Shown here: positions 26,406-36,878 of the stretch, in pieces
How positions within the stretch are numbered: position 1 is the first letter of the stretch
How the letters are laid out: each line of letters opens with the position of its first letter
From: a virus
IMG/VR virus record: IMGVR_UViG_3300005609_000319
Span: 1-36,878 of that record
Length of the DNA: 36,878 nt
Direction: 5' to 3' (one strand)
Translations under genes and position numbers: made by a program
Notes under the pieces: model-generated
What the model was told of the DNA's origin: nothing
What the model saw: only the letters and a program-made list of their open reading frames with translations
Databases searched by the model: none

Positions 26406-26533
26406 TATTTTTCATAGGTAACATCCTTGTTATTAAGCTATAAATTTATTATTTTCCACTTCCTCTAAGAGCATCATCCAGTATAACATTGATTTTTTAG
26501 TCATAACATCTTCAAATAAAAAAGGAATTATTG

Positions 26534-27280
26534 ATGAAACATTATGTACCTGAATTTTTAGGTGTAATCTTAGCTTTGTTATTAATTAATGTTTGGTACC
26601 TAGCTGGAGTAGCTATCGAAGAGTCTATTCTCCCTATTGAATATGAATTTTCAATAAAATTATTTTCGGTAATTATAGGTGCTTTTATTGGAGCTTACTC
26701 TGCTTTTAAACTTGACCAAAGTGAAAAAAAACTAGCTGAACATAAAGAAAATAGAATAGTTATGAACAGAACTCTGTTTATATTAGTACAACAAATTAAT
26801 GCCATAAAACTTGTTAAGAGAGACTTGGATAAGTATCAAAGCGATTTTGAGAAAGCTTTTAATTTGCCAGCACTTGCACAGCCAGATTACTCAGATCTTA
26901 AATTTGAACAAAATAAATTAAGTTTTTTAATAGAGCATCATTATGCTCACATTTTGATGGAGCTTCGTCTAGAGCAATCTAGATTTGAACAAGCTATGGG
27001 TTCAATCAAAATTAGAAATGAATTTTATATAAATGAAGTCCAGCCATTAGTAAGCAAACATGAGTTAACAGGGAAAAAATTACCTTTAAAAGAGTATCAT
27101 TACAAATTAGGCGAACGTGTATTTAAAGGTGCCTTTCAGGGGATTGAACAAGTGTGTTTCCATGTTGAAGAAACGGAAACTTCTTTAATGGAGCTATTTA
27201 ATAAAGTATCAATAATAGCGAAAGAATTATTCCCAAAGGAAATAATTCTCAATTGGTCTGAAAAGCCAAAGTCTCAATAA
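26534..27280 (+). CDS. membrane protein of unknown function on the opposite strand
   Basis: A 248-residue protein with two N-terminal membrane helices (about residues 8-27 and 44-60) and a long helical, charged cytoplasmic part. No known catalytic motif. I start it at ATG 26534, with AAGGA eight bases before it; the TTG one codon earlier is not needed. It is the only plus-strand gene inside the minus-strand phage block, converges with mor 18 bases away, and has AT-rich codons, all of which fit a lysogenic-conversion gene. Two TM helices plus a helical domain is a layout common in anti-phage effectors, but that is only a resemblance. Confidence 0.75.
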   Translation: MKHYVPEFLGVILALLLINVWYLAGVAIEESILPIEYEFSIKLFSVIIGAFIGAYSAFKLDQSEKKLAEHKENRIVMNRTLFILVQQINAIKLVKRDLDKYQSDFEKAFNLPALAQPDYSDLKFEQNKLSFLIEHHYAHILMELRLEQSRFEQAMGSIKIRNEFYINEVQPLVSKHELTGKKLPLKEYHYKLGERVFKGAFQGIEQVCFHVEETETSLMELFNKVSIIAKELFPKEIILNWSEKPKSQ

Positions 27281-31366: not shown

Positions 31367-32086
31367 TTAACGACGGCGGCTATCTAGGAAAATTTCACGA
31401 ATATCTACATCATCCAGTGAAATTTTGTCTCGCTGTGCTGCAATGGCTTTACGCTCTATTTTCTCTAGTGCTGATAAAATTCGACGCACTTCACCATTAG
31501 CTTTACGTTGTACGGCCTCAAGCAAGTCTTCTTCTAAACGAATTTCATTTTCTAAAAGCTCATCAGCAAATAAGGCAACATCTTCAAAATCAGCTGGTTG
31601 AAACTCTATCCACTCGCTAATCCGGTTAAATAGCTGTTTACGATGAGATATACGGCGAGCTATTTGATCCATACCAATGAGTAGTACTGGCTGTTGAGTT
31701 AAGTCGTAAATATCGCGTAGCGACTCCATAATTCGAGCCGAGCCAATAACGTAGTCCACTTCATCAACAAAAAGTGAAAGCTCTTTGTGACGCATATTTT
31801 CAACAATATCGTCAACCATACGGCCTAGCGGATATTTAGGATCAAGCCCCATTTCAAAGGCGATTTTGGTTAATAATGATGACGGGGTATCGGTCGCACG
31901 GCAGCGAACATAGATGGCATCAACATGGTCTTGGTTAAATAACCAAGTCATAGTGGTGGTTTTACCAAAACCACTCGGACCATGTACAAGCCCTATTCCC
32001 TCTACAATGGCGCTACGGCTATTTAAGTTGTCAAACAACTCTTCACAACGTAAAACGTTTTTTACTTCGACAGTTTTCAATTTCAT
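31367..32086 (-). CDS. transposition target-capture ATPase, MuB-like
   Basis: A 239-residue AAA ATPase. Walker A is G-P-S-G-F-G-K-T-T at 36-44; Walker B is L-S-L-F-V-D-E at about 103-109; a sensor-like R-R-I-S-H-R and arginine-rich C-terminus follow. It binds target DNA and activates transposase A. It is shorter than Mu B (312 residues): the N-terminal helix-turn-helix region is missing. It lies right after transposase A. Confidence 0.92.
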   Translation of the reverse strand: MKLKTVEVKNVLRCEELFDNLNSRSAIVEGIGLVHGPSGFGKTTTMTWLFNQDHVDAIYVRCRATDTPSSLLTKIAFEMGLDPKYPLGRMVDDIVENMRHKELSLFVDEVDYVIGSARIMESLRDIYDLTQQPVLLIGMDQIARRISHRKQLFNRISEWIEFQPADFEDVALFADELLENEIRLEEDLLEAVQRKANGEVRRILSALEKIERKAIAAQRDKISLDDVDIREIFLDSRRR

Positions 32087-32125: not shown

Positions 32126-34408
32126 TTAATGCGCGTCACCAGTTAGGTTCGAGTCTTGTTGGTGACGTGCTTCTTCTAAAAATTTGTTAATTCTTCTCGC
32201 GGCCATTACATGGCTACGCAAAAAGTCTTTAAACCACTTATTCTCTTTTTCCGTTAATGGCGTATGCAGCGACTTACGAGCATAATCCCAAGCAACTTCA
32301 AGCTCTGTGCGTAGAGTTTTAGCATTGCTTTCTGCAGCCATAGCTTGCTGTCTATTACGTTTTTCACGTCTTGCGGCTATGCCTTCAAGTTGTGCTTCGC
32401 TATAAGTTGGTTGTGAATTTTCATCACCTGCAGCTGCTGTTGGTTTAAAGTCATCAAGTGCTGAAATCATGCCGTTATCATGCGGTAAAGACGGTTGAGG
32501 AAATGCAGATAAGCTACTGTTTTTAGCCTTGTGGTAAGCCAACTCTTTCGCGTGAATTTCATCAACACCAAAGGTATCAGCCAACGCTTTAGCTGTTTTT
32601 CTAAAGTTACTAAGTACTTTGCGCTCTTGTTTTCTGCGAGCTTGAAATTCTTGAGGGCTAATATCACGACCAACTAACTCTTGGTTAACCGCTTCTATCC
32701 AGTAAACATCATCACCAATAGCATCAATGGGGTATAAAACCGCACGACCTACATCGCTTGGATCTACAAATACGCGCACTTTTACGCGATCCCATACGGC
32801 TTCCATTAATTCAGGTGCAACATATTTAACAGCGCCTGCTTTAACCATGCCGCGAACAACGGTGGCATCACTTACATAATTAAGTAATAAGTTAAGGGCA
32901 TCGGGGTTACTAATCATGCGTGGTTGATAAGCCGATTTTTGATAAACATTAAATGGGGTATCTTTAAGATCGCCATGCTCTTGATGGTGATAACTATATT
33001 CAAGCCAGTTATCTAAAAACTCTTGTAACTCACTACCCGTAAGCTTAAGTTCTTCAACTTTTTTATCTTCTCGCGTTTCTTTTTTACTAATACGCTCAGC
33101 GAAGCTTTTAGCAGCTTCAATTTGTTTTCTGTCACTAACATTGTGCCCAATATAGCTAGGCAACTTTTCAACAATAGAATGGCTTAACGTTCTAAAGAAG
33201 CGTTCAACATAGGGTTTTTCCCAACCTGAATAAGCTTTAGTTCTATGTTGATTAAAATCGAGCATGCTAAATAATGTACTAACTTTTTTACTTACATAAT
33301 CACTGCCATTATCGGTAACGGCTAAGCCGCCTTCGTTGATCATGCCCCATTCTAAAATAGTCTTTCTCAGCAACAAGCAAATACCTTCACTGCTTGAAGT
33401 AGGTGCAACCCAAAGCTTTACACGACGAGTAAAGACATCAATAACAGCAATAATGCTATGACGGCCATCTTTAAGCATGACGTCAGCAGGAGTTGAATCG
33501 AATTCCCAAATATCATTAGGACGCTCTAACATTTGGTGCATATAAGCGTGACCAAATAGCGGTCTGTGCTTGCTGTTATAGGCATCGGGGTTAGTAACAT
33601 AAGCAAACTCAGCACTATGCCGTTTTATCCAAGAGTTAACCCAACGTTGCACAGAACTAATAGAAGGAATTTCCCAATCAGGGTGATCCGTTTGTTGCAT
33701 GATCACTAACGACTGATGAATGGCTCTTGGCTTTTGTGCCAAGTGTGGTTTTTTAACCAAGAACGCCATCAAGAACTGCTCAACTTCGGGTTGACGGCTA
33801 ATAACCGACTTACCACGCGTACTGGTATAGTTTCCCGCTAAGGCTGTCATACCACCTTTATCTAGAGCTGACTGCCAACGGTATTTAAACTGCTTTGAAA
33901 TGGTTTTAACGGCTTTATAAATCCATTCAGGCAATTCAAGCGTTCGGTTTTTGTATTCACTAACAAACTGCAATAAACCATCAACTTCTTTTCCAACAGC
34001 TTTATGCGGTTCAATGTAAGTTTGGTAAGCTTGCAATATAAGCAATTTGGCTTGTGCTCTTTGCTGCGATTTTTCAGGCAGGCCATTAAATTGTAATAAA
34101 CCTTGTTCACGACCAGCTTGCTTTTGTTGATTACTAAGGTATTCCTGGCGCTCAACTTCAACAGCCAATTTACGGGCAGAACGAGCAGGCACTATTTCAG
34201 CCTTGGCCAGTGTTTCAGCAGCTTGTTTTGCTAAAAATTGTTGCGTAGCTTGTGGTAAAGAGCTGATGTGATATTCAAAGCCTTTGCCGACTGAGCACTT
34301 ACGCTTTTGCCAATTTTCTTTAGCCGCTTTTAAACGAATGTTTCTTGCGTTATTCGGTGTATCTGGCAGCGTTGATATTTCCTGTGCTGTGTACCATTCC
34401 TTAGTCAT
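32126..34408 (-). CDS. DDE transposase A, MuA-like
   Basis: A 760-residue transposase. The N-terminal part (about 1-80) is a MuA-type winged HTH starting W-Y-T-A-Q-E-I. The catalytic core has Asp304 (W-E-F-D-S-T), Asp366 (V-T-D-N-G-S-D) and Glu402 (P-Y-V-E-R-F-F), a DD35E spacing as in retroviral integrases, whereas Mu A has about 55 residues between the last two. A beta-barrel region (about 520-600) and a helical tail follow. It cuts and joins the phage ends and drives replicative transposition. It overlaps the Ner-like gene by eight bases. Confidence 0.95.
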   Translation of the reverse strand: MTKEWYTAQEISTLPDTPNNARNIRLKAAKENWQKRKCSVGKGFEYHISSLPQATQQFLAKQAAETLAKAEIVPARSARKLAVEVERQEYLSNQQKQAGREQGLLQFNGLPEKSQQRAQAKLLILQAYQTYIEPHKAVGKEVDGLLQFVSEYKNRTLELPEWIYKAVKTISKQFKYRWQSALDKGGMTALAGNYTSTRGKSVISRQPEVEQFLMAFLVKKPHLAQKPRAIHQSLVIMQQTDHPDWEIPSISSVQRWVNSWIKRHSAEFAYVTNPDAYNSKHRPLFGHAYMHQMLERPNDIWEFDSTPADVMLKDGRHSIIAVIDVFTRRVKLWVAPTSSSEGICLLLRKTILEWGMINEGGLAVTDNGSDYVSKKVSTLFSMLDFNQHRTKAYSGWEKPYVERFFRTLSHSIVEKLPSYIGHNVSDRKQIEAAKSFAERISKKETREDKKVEELKLTGSELQEFLDNWLEYSYHHQEHGDLKDTPFNVYQKSAYQPRMISNPDALNLLLNYVSDATVVRGMVKAGAVKYVAPELMEAVWDRVKVRVFVDPSDVGRAVLYPIDAIGDDVYWIEAVNQELVGRDISPQEFQARRKQERKVLSNFRKTAKALADTFGVDEIHAKELAYHKAKNSSLSAFPQPSLPHDNGMISALDDFKPTAAAGDENSQPTYSEAQLEGIAARREKRNRQQAMAAESNAKTLRTELEVAWDYARKSLHTPLTEKENKWFKDFLRSHVMAARRINKFLEEARHQQDSNLTGDAH

Positions 34409-34628
34409 GTTTCACTCCAACCAAATCAAACCCTATGGTTTCAGATAGCTTTGCTAATATTTCTATGGCTAACTTACGTTTTGGCTTGCGCCCTGTCTCA
34501 GGGGCGAACCACTGCACATACTTTTGCACTGTTCTTGGTTTGTAACCGTTAGCTTTTGCCCAAGACCTGCAACTCATGCCCTGCGCAAGTAATGCTGCAT
34601 GTATATGATTTGCTTTTTCTATCTGCAT
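34401..34628 (-). CDS. Ner-like early regulator (HTH)
   Basis: A 75-residue basic protein with a helix-turn-helix near residues 18-41 (S-C-R-S-W-A-K-A-N-G-Y-K-P-R-T-V-Q-K-Y-V). It is the first gene of the early operon and diverges from the repressor, the position of Mu Ner, which lowers early transcription. It overlaps the transposase gene by eight bases. Whether it is a true Ner homologue or an unrelated small HTH cannot be told from the sequence alone. Confidence 0.75.
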   Translation of the reverse strand: MQIEKANHIHAALLAQGMSCRSWAKANGYKPRTVQKYVQWFAPETGRKPKRKLAIEILAKLSETIGFDLVGVKHD

Positions 34629-34663
34629 AAATATAAACTCATGTTATTATCTTAAATGTTCGC

Positions 34664-34782
34664 AATGCGTAACCTTTTGCGCATTCAATAAATTACGCAC
34701 TGCGTAACTTTTGAAACATAATAGATCCGTTTCTTGCGCATTGCAATAAAAATCACGCGATCCGTTTCATTTTTTACGCATT
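34664..34782. repeat. operator family 1: six AATGCGYAA sites
   Basis: AATGCGYAA or near match occurs six times in both orientations: 34664-34672, 34677-34685, 34693-34701, 34699-34707, 34734-34742 and 34774-34782. Two of them form the 15-base perfect palindrome TTACGCACTGCGTAA (34693-34707). They fill the 174 bases between the Ner-like gene and the repressor, and are the likely binding sites for one of these regulators, or for the MuA N-terminal domain if the region serves as a transposition enhancer. Confidence 0.85.
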
Positions 34783-34891
34783 ACAAGTAAGAAAACAAAC
34801 AAATGACTGATTTAAAAGAAAAAAGTATAAAAACGGATCGGGGCAGCGATAAAGGGATCGGTGATCCGTTACTTAATAATAAAAACGGATC
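34724..34891. repeat. operator family 2: five AACGGATC sites
   Basis: The octamer AACGGATC or its complement lies at 34724-34731, 34759-34766, 34832-34839, 34863-34870 and 34884-34891. A sixth, GGATC-GGT-GATCC (34855-34867), is a dyad with one mismatch. Three of the five are inside the repressor coding sequence and encode parts of its N-terminal extension. The likely ligand is the repressor itself, for autoregulation. Confidence 0.8.
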
Positions 34892-35558
34892 TCTAGCAGG
34901 TAGAGTTGAGCAGGCAATAAAACCTGACAGCATACGAGCATTTGCGTCAAAAATTGATGTATCGGAAGGAACTTTACGCAGAATTCTAAAAGGTGAAGAC
35001 CCAAAGCTAAGTGTTGTTGAGAAAATAGCTCTAGAAGCCGATGTTAATTTCAACTGGCTTGTTAAAGGTGTGTCTGAAGGTATTAGCAGTGCTAATAATG
35101 TAGATATATGCGCTACTGTTAGTGTTGATGAGTTTAATGAAGAGTATGTACTCATCCCTGGCTACCATGTTTCAGTAAGCACAGGCCATGGCGCACTAAA
35201 CGGCGAGCATGAAGTTAAACGCCAGCTAGCATTTCGTAGTAAATGGTTGAGATTTAGAAAACTAAACGCCAGCGACCTAGCAGTTGTATTCGCCCAGGGC
35301 GACTCAATGGAACCAACTATCCATAATGGCAACACAGTTTTAGTAGACCTATCTGACACACAATTAAGAGATGGTTCTATCTATGTACTACGCTTTGGCC
35401 AAGAACTTTACGCCAAGCGCCTACAAAAGCGCTTTGACGGCTCTGTATGCTTAATAAGCGATAATAAAGAGTATGACGACCAAATAGTAAAAGAAGACGA
35501 ATTAGAGCAACTAGCCATCATAGGTAAGGTTGTTTGGATCGGTAAAGACTTGTATTAG
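34803..35558 (+). CDS. S24-type lysogeny repressor
   Basis: A 251-residue protein. Residues 1-35 are an unusual low-complexity tail encoded by operator DNA. A helix-turn-helix follows (about 42-75, S-I-R-A-F-A-S-K-I-D-V-S-E-G-T-L-R-R-I-L). The C-terminal half is an S24 (LexA/CI) peptidase domain with Ser168 in G-D-S-M-E-P and Lys205 in Y-A-K-R-L. Autocleavage in response to DNA damage is therefore plausible, unlike the Mu repressor, which is not LexA-type. It diverges from the Ner-like gene across the operators and heads a three-gene operon. Confidence 0.9.
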   Translation: MTDLKEKSIKTDRGSDKGIGDPLLNNKNGSLAGRVEQAIKPDSIRAFASKIDVSEGTLRRILKGEDPKLSVVEKIALEADVNFNWLVKGVSEGISSANNVDICATVSVDEFNEEYVLIPGYHVSVSTGHGALNGEHEVKRQLAFRSKWLRFRKLNASDLAVVFAQGDSMEPTIHNGNTVLVDLSDTQLRDGSIYVLRFGQELYAKRLQKRFDGSVCLISDNKEYDDQIVKEDELEQLAIIGKVVWIGKDLY

Positions 35559-35571
35559 GAGAATAAAAATA

Positions 35572-36261
35572 ATGGATTACGTTGCACCACAATTTGAGTT
35601 AGATGCATTTAATTGCCCACATTGCCGTGCTTATTCACAAATGGACTGGAGTACACTCTTTAGAGCAAAACAAGCACAGCGCACGCCTGTTCCGTACATG
35701 ATAGCAGTATGCACTAGATGTGGTAAAAACAATGTTTGGTTAAGGAAAGTAATTCAACGTCAACCTGAAATAATTACCTCTGGCAGAATGGTTTACCCTG
35801 ATGTAGTAACAACTCCTCCTGCTATAGCAGATATGCCAGATGACGTGAAAGCAGAATATAATGAAGCTGCAACTGTACTGAATAAATCCCCTCGCTCAGC
35901 AGCAGCACTACTTAGGCAAGCCTTACAAAAGCTAATGGTGCATTTAGGTGAACCAGGTAAGAAAATCGATGCTGATATCAGAAGCCTAGCTAAAAAAGAA
36001 AAATTACCAGCAATGCTAATAAAAGTGGCTGATACCATGCGTTTAACAGGCAATGACTCAGTTCACCCTGGTGAGATGTTAGATGAAGACAGAGACCATA
36101 TAGCCACTAAAATGTTCGACCTTCTAAATCACATTGTATATAGCGCAATTACTCAACCTAAAGAGTTTGAGGCCATGTACAACATGACACCGGAACACAA
36201 ACGAAAAGCCGCTGAAGAAAAAGACGCAAAAGCCAAGCTAATAGCAAAACAAGGAAGTTAA
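35572..36261 (+). CDS. DUF4145 protein with N-terminal zinc ribbon
   Basis: A 229-residue protein. The N-terminal part has C-P-H-C at about 14-17 and C-T-R-C at about 47-50, a zinc ribbon. The C-terminal part (about 95-210) is a DUF4145 domain (N-K-S-P-R-S-A-A-A-L-L-R-Q-A-L, and the D-S-V-H-P-G stretch). DUF4145 occurs beside or fused to restriction and other defence proteins. I start it at ATG 35572, with GGAG ten bases upstream and 13 bases after the repressor stop; an upstream in-frame start lies inside the repressor gene. It is co-transcribed with the repressor and thus made in lysogens. Confidence 0.8.
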   Translation: MDYVAPQFELDAFNCPHCRAYSQMDWSTLFRAKQAQRTPVPYMIAVCTRCGKNNVWLRKVIQRQPEIITSGRMVYPDVVTTPPAIADMPDDVKAEYNEAATVLNKSPRSAAALLRQALQKLMVHLGEPGKKIDADIRSLAKKEKLPAMLIKVADTMRLTGNDSVHPGEMLDEDRDHIATKMFDLLNHIVYSAITQPKEFEAMYNMTPEHKRKAAEEKDAKAKLIAKQGS

Positions 36262-36479: not shown

Positions 36480-36496
36480 ATTATTTCTCATTTTAG

Positions 36497-36527
36497 GCGG
36501 TTTAATCTAAGATAGAATTTAAACCGC
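36497..36527 (+). terminator. terminator of the repressor operon
   Basis: GCGGTTTAA and TTAAACCGC pair, with an inner TCTA/TAGA extension, and a pyrimidine-rich exit follows. It lies 17 bases after the last stop. Copies of TTTCTCATTT flank it (36484-36493 and 36534-36543). Confidence 0.72.
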
Positions 36528-36600
36528 TCGACTTTTCTCATTTCAAAACAATTTTTAAAACAACCTTAAAATTTCATTTAAAGTCTTTTAAATAAAGGTC

Positions 36601-36620
36601 TCCCACAAATTCCCGCAAAT
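36601..36620. repeat. tandem 10-mers near the phage end
   Basis: TCCCACAAAT is followed directly by TCCCGCAAAT, nine of ten bases alike, 44-64 bases inside the terminus. Terminal repeats in Mu-like phages are transposase-binding sites, so this may be one. The gap 36480-36664 holds no gene. Confidence 0.55.
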
Positions 36621-36659
36621 TTTTAGATTATCTCGGTTTTTTACATTCTTAATGACTGG

Positions 36660-36669
36660 TTACACATCC
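36660..36669. other. prophage terminus and target-site flank
   Basis: On the plus strand the phage ends GGTTACA (36664) and the disrupted gene begins CATCC (36665-36669). The element thus ends in CA, and reads TGTAACC inward on the minus strand. Homology to the intact protease gene stops precisely here, so the terminus is placed to the base. Mu-like transposition duplicates five target bases, so the other junction should show the same five (GGATG on the minus strand). Confidence 0.82.
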
Positions 36670-36878
36670 ATTAGCCACTTACCGCCTTCAACATCAATAT
36701 CTCTGTTGTCGGTTGGGGTAAAGTAACCATCAGGTAAAATTTGCACACGGTTGCTTGTACTTGGGTTTATAGCGTTATCGGCAAAAGTAAGCACAGCAAC
36801 ATTGGCTGTTACTTGTTTAGTGAGAATGGCTAAGCCAAGGTTTTGGCTAAGTGATTTTTTGTTTGGGAATGTTTTCAT
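36665..36878 (-). pseudogene. 5' fragment of another Mu-like protease gene (gpI)
   Basis: The last 214 bases of the window code, on the minus strand, for 71 residues that match the start of this phage's own protease at 65 of 71 positions; the frame then runs two codons into phage DNA and stops. Substitutions are spread along it, so it is not a recent duplicate of the local gene. It is the host-side part of a related prophage gene interrupted by this insertion. The window ends at its ATG. Confidence 0.85.

Follow-up and report, generated by a model that had tools for sequence, protein, structure and literature searches.

Which protein reads the short repeats that crowd the early control region of this Mu-like phage, and why do some of them run on into the repressor gene? 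The phage is represented by a 36.9-kb virus record, analyzed here at its full length of 36,878 nucleotides (the window), and relatives were found within Colwellia, Shewanella, Aeromonas, and Photobacterium genomes; loci from these and other relatives are designated L followed by a number. Two families of sites, motif 1 (AATGCGYAA) and motif 2 (AACGGATC / GAAACGGATC), occupy the region from which the repressor and the early (ner-transposase) genes diverge, the location expected of a Mu-type enhancer (Table 1). In phage Mu, the enhancer is bound by the Iα domain of the transposase (PMC3362531, PMC3562280). The reading that we consider probable for the present phage is that motif 2 constitutes a transpositional enhancer, on which Iα would dock at a fixed register and whose translation would make up the N-terminal extension of the repressor, and that motif 1 supplies the operators of the Ner-like protein.

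Table 1. Genes and sites of the control region and its surroundings (positions in the window).
Feature	Position	Strand	Basis or remark
MuB-like AAA ATPase	31367..32086	-	profile matches
Transposase A, Mu-type, 760 aa	32126..34408	-	PF02316 Iα winged helix at residues 10-74
Ner-like regulator, 75 aa	34401..34628	-	PHROG 8503/925; helix PRTVQKYV
Motif 1 imperfect palindrome TTCGCAATGCGTAA	34659..34672		sequence
Motif 1 half-site TTGCGCATT	34677..34685	-	sequence
Motif 1 perfect palindrome TTACGCACTGCGTAA, proposed Ner-type operator	34693..34707		sequence; Ner-helix association
Motif 2 outermost site, GAAACGGATC on -	34724..34733	-	35 bp to next; in spacer of promoter-like match
Motif 1 degenerate dimer TTGCGCATTGCAATA	34734..34748	-	at -35 of promoter-like match
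Motif 2 site S1, GAAACGGATC on -	34759..34768	-	~73-74 bp before S2
Motif 1 half-site TTACGCATT	34774..34782	-	sequence
Repressor, 251 aa	34803..35558	+	extension 1-~30, HTH_3/CI-like DNA-binding domain 31-88, S24 peptidase domain
Repressor gene part with S2-S5 (N-terminal extension)	34803..34898	+	sequence, conservation, predicted disorder
Motif 2 site S2, AACGGATC	34832..34839	+	repressor codons 10-13; register 0
Motif 2 site S3, AAGGGATC, one mismatch	34852..34859	+	register +20
Motif 2 site S4, inverted, GATCCGTT on +	34863..34870	-	register about +30
Motif 2 site S5, AACGGATC	34884..34891	+	register +52

Two Families of Sites and Their Setting

Within 34659-34891, motif 1 is present in four exact copies, at 34664 (+), 34677 (-), 34734 (-), and 34774 (-), and the earlier note on this DNA, which had counted six, is borne out for these four, the other two being the arms of the perfect 15-base palindrome TTACGCACTGCGTAA, each of which matches AATGCGYAA with one mismatch. 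The five sites that it had given for the second family were all recovered as exact copies of AACGGATC, joined by the near copy AAGGGATC, and only two further exact copies of AACGGATC occur elsewhere in the 36.9-kb window. When motif copies were counted in 3000 dinucleotide shuffles of 34629-34900 (272 bases), at least four copies of motif 1 were never obtained (0/3000; mean 0.03), nor were at least five of motif 2 (0/3000; mean 0.009). Motif 2 sites are single and non-palindromic, with the exception of the S3/S4 pair, which forms an imperfect palindrome in the window and a perfect one in the sister phage L008 (AAGGGATCTGTGATCCCTT). The 35-bp spacing of the two upstream copies recurs in L008 and L010. 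Named phages searched at the DNA level with the site region gave no match.

Some features of the wider window may be recorded here. The gene for a DUF4145 protein (phrog_1305; 35560-36261) directly follows that of the repressor in the same orientation, and a 249-aa plus-strand open reading frame (26531-27280), with neither a Pfam nor a PHROG match, is surrounded by minus-strand genes. The phage end possibly lies within 36480-36878, perhaps with host DNA after it; this segment holds TTAGATTATYTC twice, as well as an inverted repeat, GGCGGTTTAA...TTTAAACCGC, around 36497-36527.

The N-Terminal Extension of the Repressor

As the earlier note had stated, three exact motif 2 copies lie inside the repressor reading frame, and with the near copy there are four, all within the first 30 codons and before the HTH. 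In the predicted structure, disorder is indicated for residues 1-27 (pLDDT <50), and the helices of the HTH span residues 31-88. No in-frame ATG, GTG, or TTG exists between the start codon and the HTH, and the extension must therefore be translated if the repressor gene is. The motifs do not vary freely between close relatives: comparing the window with L008, 1 of 48 bases was changed in the motif 2 cores and 14 of 71 in the extension outside them (Fisher p=0.004), and the cores are kept in the sister phages L008 and L009. In near relatives, the repressor stretch 'DP[IF]L...GIGS' is the translation of an inverted pair of motif sites. Since S2-S5 occupy the first 30 repressor codons, the disordered extension is probably in large part translated enhancer DNA, a by-product of sites that would serve to activate transposition. 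The earlier proposal that coding sequence is shaped by operator function is supported insofar as DNA sites shape the extension, but there is no support for the preferred idea that motif 2 is the repressor's operator. In Shewanella phage vB_SspS_MuM16-1 (L216, 183-827), the repressor has probably been annotated with a start too far downstream; its frame stays open for ~105 more bases upstream, and the added part resembles the extension of L188.

A 52-bp Register Across Loci

Same-strand motif copies exactly 52 bp apart were found in 23 of 48 loci, against a mean of 2.7 and a maximum of 9 in 1000 random trials, and 20 and 32 bp were the other frequent spacings. A motif-free autocorrelation over 77 loci likewise returned lag 52 in 14 loci and the next lag in 5, the shuffled maximum being 6. 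From the array to the inverted site on the other side of the start codon, the median distance is 71 bp, and about 71-74 bp is a further secondary spacing. The spacings 20, 32, and 52 are all indivisible by 3, and the position of the first array site with respect to the repressor start codon ranges from about -52 to +59; the spacing of the array is therefore held at the DNA level. Differences in motif sequence, repressor, and start-codon position leave the register in place, and it recurs in many distant relatives; it is present also in L094 and L098, which lie outside the register statistics. No clear motif was found in L191, L154, L163, or L167, and phage HS6, judged with its annotated start, has no such array. 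IHF sites between the clusters were not enriched over all loci; in the window, an IHF-like site with one mismatch lies over the repressor start codon (p=0.26).

Motif 2 and the Transposase Recognition Helix

The Iα domain of the transposase (PF02316) matches MuA domain 1TNS by sequence (E=6.6e-5), and 1TNS was also the only significant PDB match of its predicted fold, the next being the Mu repressor domain 1QPM. Its recognition helix is the second helix, transposase residues 21-30, with the variable residues NNARNIR (19-25) at the helix start. Across 43 loci, the similarity of motif 2 followed that of the nine-residue Iα helix (partial rank correlation 0.36, p=0.0003) rather than that of the repressor HTH (0.08, p=0.06), with a bootstrap interval of 0.09-0.41 for the Iα-minus-HTH difference, although the p-values from permutation are optimistic, as the loci share ancestry, and the recognition-helix test was a second look, chosen after the whole-domain comparison had failed to discriminate (motif vs. 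Iα 0.13, vs. repressor 0.16). A first contrast of discordant pairs alone was not significant (Mann-Whitney p=0.26), since few pairs are alike in the repressor and several of those grouped as alike in the helix match only in part.

Individual loci illustrate the pattern. In L010, with a repressor 55% identical to that of the window, coding and non-coding motif 2 copies alike read GATCCGATTC in place of GATCCGTTTC, and in further relatives the motif is wholly changed (GAATCGGAC, GAACTCGGACGC, GAACTCTGACGC, GAAAAGAAACGT, AAAAGGAAC, and others) and still enters the repressor gene. L038 and L078 have a common Iα helix, GTDRRVR, and a common motif, GAACTCGGACGC, with repressor HTHs that are 34% identical, whereas L038 and L057 have similar HTHs and differ in both Iα helix and motif. 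L186 retains motif 2 although the HTH of its repressor visibly belongs to another type. In L190, a prophage of a Shewanella genome and a single case, the reading frame of the transposase breaks off beyond residue 82 and motif 2 copies are decayed or lost, while motif 1 palindromes and a near-identical repressor helix remain. A letter code for the helix, offered as a lead, pairs DRR with GGAC, DRN/DRA with GGAT, and [DEA]RG with GGAA; it fits many loci, as well as L094, L098, and phage D3112, which were examined later, and fails for L119/L024 and L047.

The transposase of L092 is 95% identical to that of the window at residues 251-760 and 32% at 1-34, and its repressor is 84% identical at 96-251 and 30-45% in the DNA-binding half, with motif 2 exchanged. 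Aligned to 32126-35558 of the window, L092 shows a sharp divergent block (transposase 1-34, Ner, the operator region, and the DNA-binding half of the repressor) between conserved flanks, which looks like the exchange of one immunity/enhancer cassette. The Iα helix, Ner, the sites, and the repressor DNA-binding domain are contiguous and, as in L092, move together, by which any assignment of a reader from co-divergence is confounded.

Motif 1 and the Ner-Like Protein

Motif 1, with the core T[A/T]CGCAnTGCG[A/T]A, is found as palindromes or clustered half-sites in 17 of 18 loci whose Ner helix is of the PRTVQ[KRL] type, and in none of the 22 loci with other Ner helices. The two groups of loci are likewise distinct in repressor type, and motif 1 may accordingly have both the Ner-like protein and the repressor as readers. 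For the early operon, a promoter-like match not above chance, TTGCAA-17-TATTAT, is located at 34746-34718 (-), and TTACGCACTGCGTAA lies close to the start expected from this chance-level match. Most likely, motif 1 serves the Ner-like protein as palindromic operators at the early promoter, perhaps shared with the CI-like repressor. Each family would then have its own reader, as the earlier note had proposed, motif 2 following the Iα helix and motif 1 the Ner helix. In L085, L086, L147, and L182, AT-rich palindromes stand where motif 1 would be; these loci have a Mu-type Ner and a transposase of the window-like type, yet their repressor carries a Mu-type (PF02316-like) domain.

Comparison with Known Systems

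The closest precedent is the Mu operator/enhancer (the internal activation sequence, O1-O2-O3), in which repeated short sites likewise lie between divergent repressor and ner-A genes and the transposase carries an Iα domain, which in Mu reads the enhancer. Run on Mu as a control, the same motif finder recovered TACTGAAAAG at -99, -84, and -59, as well as in three copies within the c gene. However, Mu lacks the 52-bp register, its motif is TACTGAAAAG as against GAAACGGATC in the window phage, and the DNA-binding domain of the Mu repressor is homologous to Iα (PF02316), whereas that of the window is HTH_3/CI-like. The window repressor consists of HTH_3 and S24 without PF02316, and motif 2 does not track it; an Iα-homologous repressor domain reading the same sites, a trait that we regard as specific to Mu and not as part of the definition of the enhancer, is thus lacking.

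Among cultured phages, Pseudomonas phage D3112 resembles the window in having an S24 and HTH_3 repressor and a PF02316 transposase. Five GGAAC sites lie at -64, -50, +23, +54, and +75 of its c gene, three of them within c, and their spacings, looked at after the statistics, include 52 and 73 bp; its Iα helix, TDRGVR, is of the class paired elsewhere with GGAA. D3112 differs in its motif (GGCGGAAC), in the absence of S3, and in having three genes between ner and A. To our knowledge, this array has not been reported as an enhancer. Phage B3, with a transposase lacking PF02316, shows no array. Lambda-type CI/Cro operators share with the window a CI-like repressor with an S24 domain, a divergent regulator, and, in motif 1, palindromic sites, but motif 2 does not have the form of a palindromic dimer site, nor does it track the repressor HTH. 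The Mu Ner operator is comparable to motif 1 as a set of palindromic sites at the early promoter for a small HTH regulator of early transcription; the window protein, however, belongs to PHROG 8503/925 with another sequence, and its proposed site is the T[A/T]CGCAnTGCG[A/T]A core.

Discussion

Taken as a whole, the sites, their register and conservation, and the co-divergence with the Iα helix, all of which are read from sequence, permit a model in which we infer binding, enhancer activity, and interference. Each motif 2 copy would dock the Iα winged helix at the N-terminus of one transposase protomer, along an array made up of an inverted S1, about 74 bp, S2 at 0, S3 at +20, an inverted S4 at about +30, and S5 at +52. 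The array, at its fixed register, may act as a scaffold on which transposase and phage ends assemble, the part that O1-O2 plays in Mu. Given the interleaving of motifs 1 and 2, use of the enhancer could also be hindered by bound Ner, or possibly by bound repressor.

The earlier note had preferred an operator role for the repressor. A rival account of this kind, in which the CI-like S24 repressor would use motif 2 as an array of operators reaching into its own gene for autoregulation while motif 1 belongs to Ner, seems unlikely. The motif 2 sites do flank and enter the repressor gene, and the S3/S4 palindrome would suit a CI dimer. In Mu, moreover, the repressor binds the enhancer sites. The Mu operator and enhancer have been drawn as one element (PMC3820752). 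However, the HTH is not tracked once the Iα helix is controlled for, motif 2 is kept in L186 beside another type of HTH and lost in L190 despite a near-identical repressor helix, and most of its sites lack the two-fold symmetry expected of such an operator. The evidence instead favors what the earlier note had given as its alternative, that one of the motifs is a transposase enhancer as in Mu. That Iα and the repressor both read motif 2 would follow the Mu precedent, and may draw on the small residual correlation with the HTH and on the palindromic pair; nevertheless, two unrelated domains would have to converge on the same sites and two unrelated folds to shift specificity together, and the discordant loci (L038/L078/L057, L186, and L190) speak against it, which makes a dual reader quite improbable in our view.

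Reading of motif 2 by the Ner-like protein is suggested by the adjoining ner gene and the interleaved motifs, but we regard it as very unlikely, because the Ner helix class goes with motif 1, and L015, L092, L010, and the window share one Ner helix type along with motif 1 and differ in motif 2. The placing of several sites in coding sequence could also mean that the repeats are a protein-level repeat or a composition effect of the extension rather than DNA sites. This explanation can be practically dismissed, as the motif also occurs upstream of the start codon, the three spacings place copies in different reading frames, the first array site shifts widely about the start codon, and the extension is predicted to be disordered.

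If the enhancer reading is extended to the family, it might be supposed that in many Mu-like phages the enhancer is set by geometry and not by sequence, co-evolving with the transposase helix and swapped, together with Ner and the DNA-binding domain of the repressor, as a cassette. In the same proposal, six or so Iα sites would stand in a strict helical register of ~7, 2, 3, and 5 turns, possibly one site for each protomer of a six-subunit end-enhancer complex; the repressor frame would drift over the array, such that unrelated repressors gain enhancer-written N-terminal extensions; and, unlike in Mu, repressor and transposase would no longer share binding sites. Taken jointly, these statements seem to us to have an even chance of being right.

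Sites inside the repressor gene are a shared Mu-type trait, known from Mu, and the overlap as such is not new. The 52-bp register, the co-divergence with Iα, and the retention of the array beside a CI-like repressor appear to be undescribed in the openly licensed literature searched. With respect to the hold of the enhancer on transposase protomers, the solved Mu transpososome is without Iα and without the enhancer (PMC3562280), and a register that stays fixed under changing sequence would provide direct distance constraints on the transposase-enhancer complex. Dozens of natural pairs of Iα helix and site may further serve as a starting recognition code. The arrays would represent coding sequence bound to a DNA-level spacing regardless of reading frame, and an enhancer decoupled from the repressor operator, the two being fused in Mu. 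The presence of the 52-bp spacing in the cultured phage D3112 makes this framework testable in a known system.
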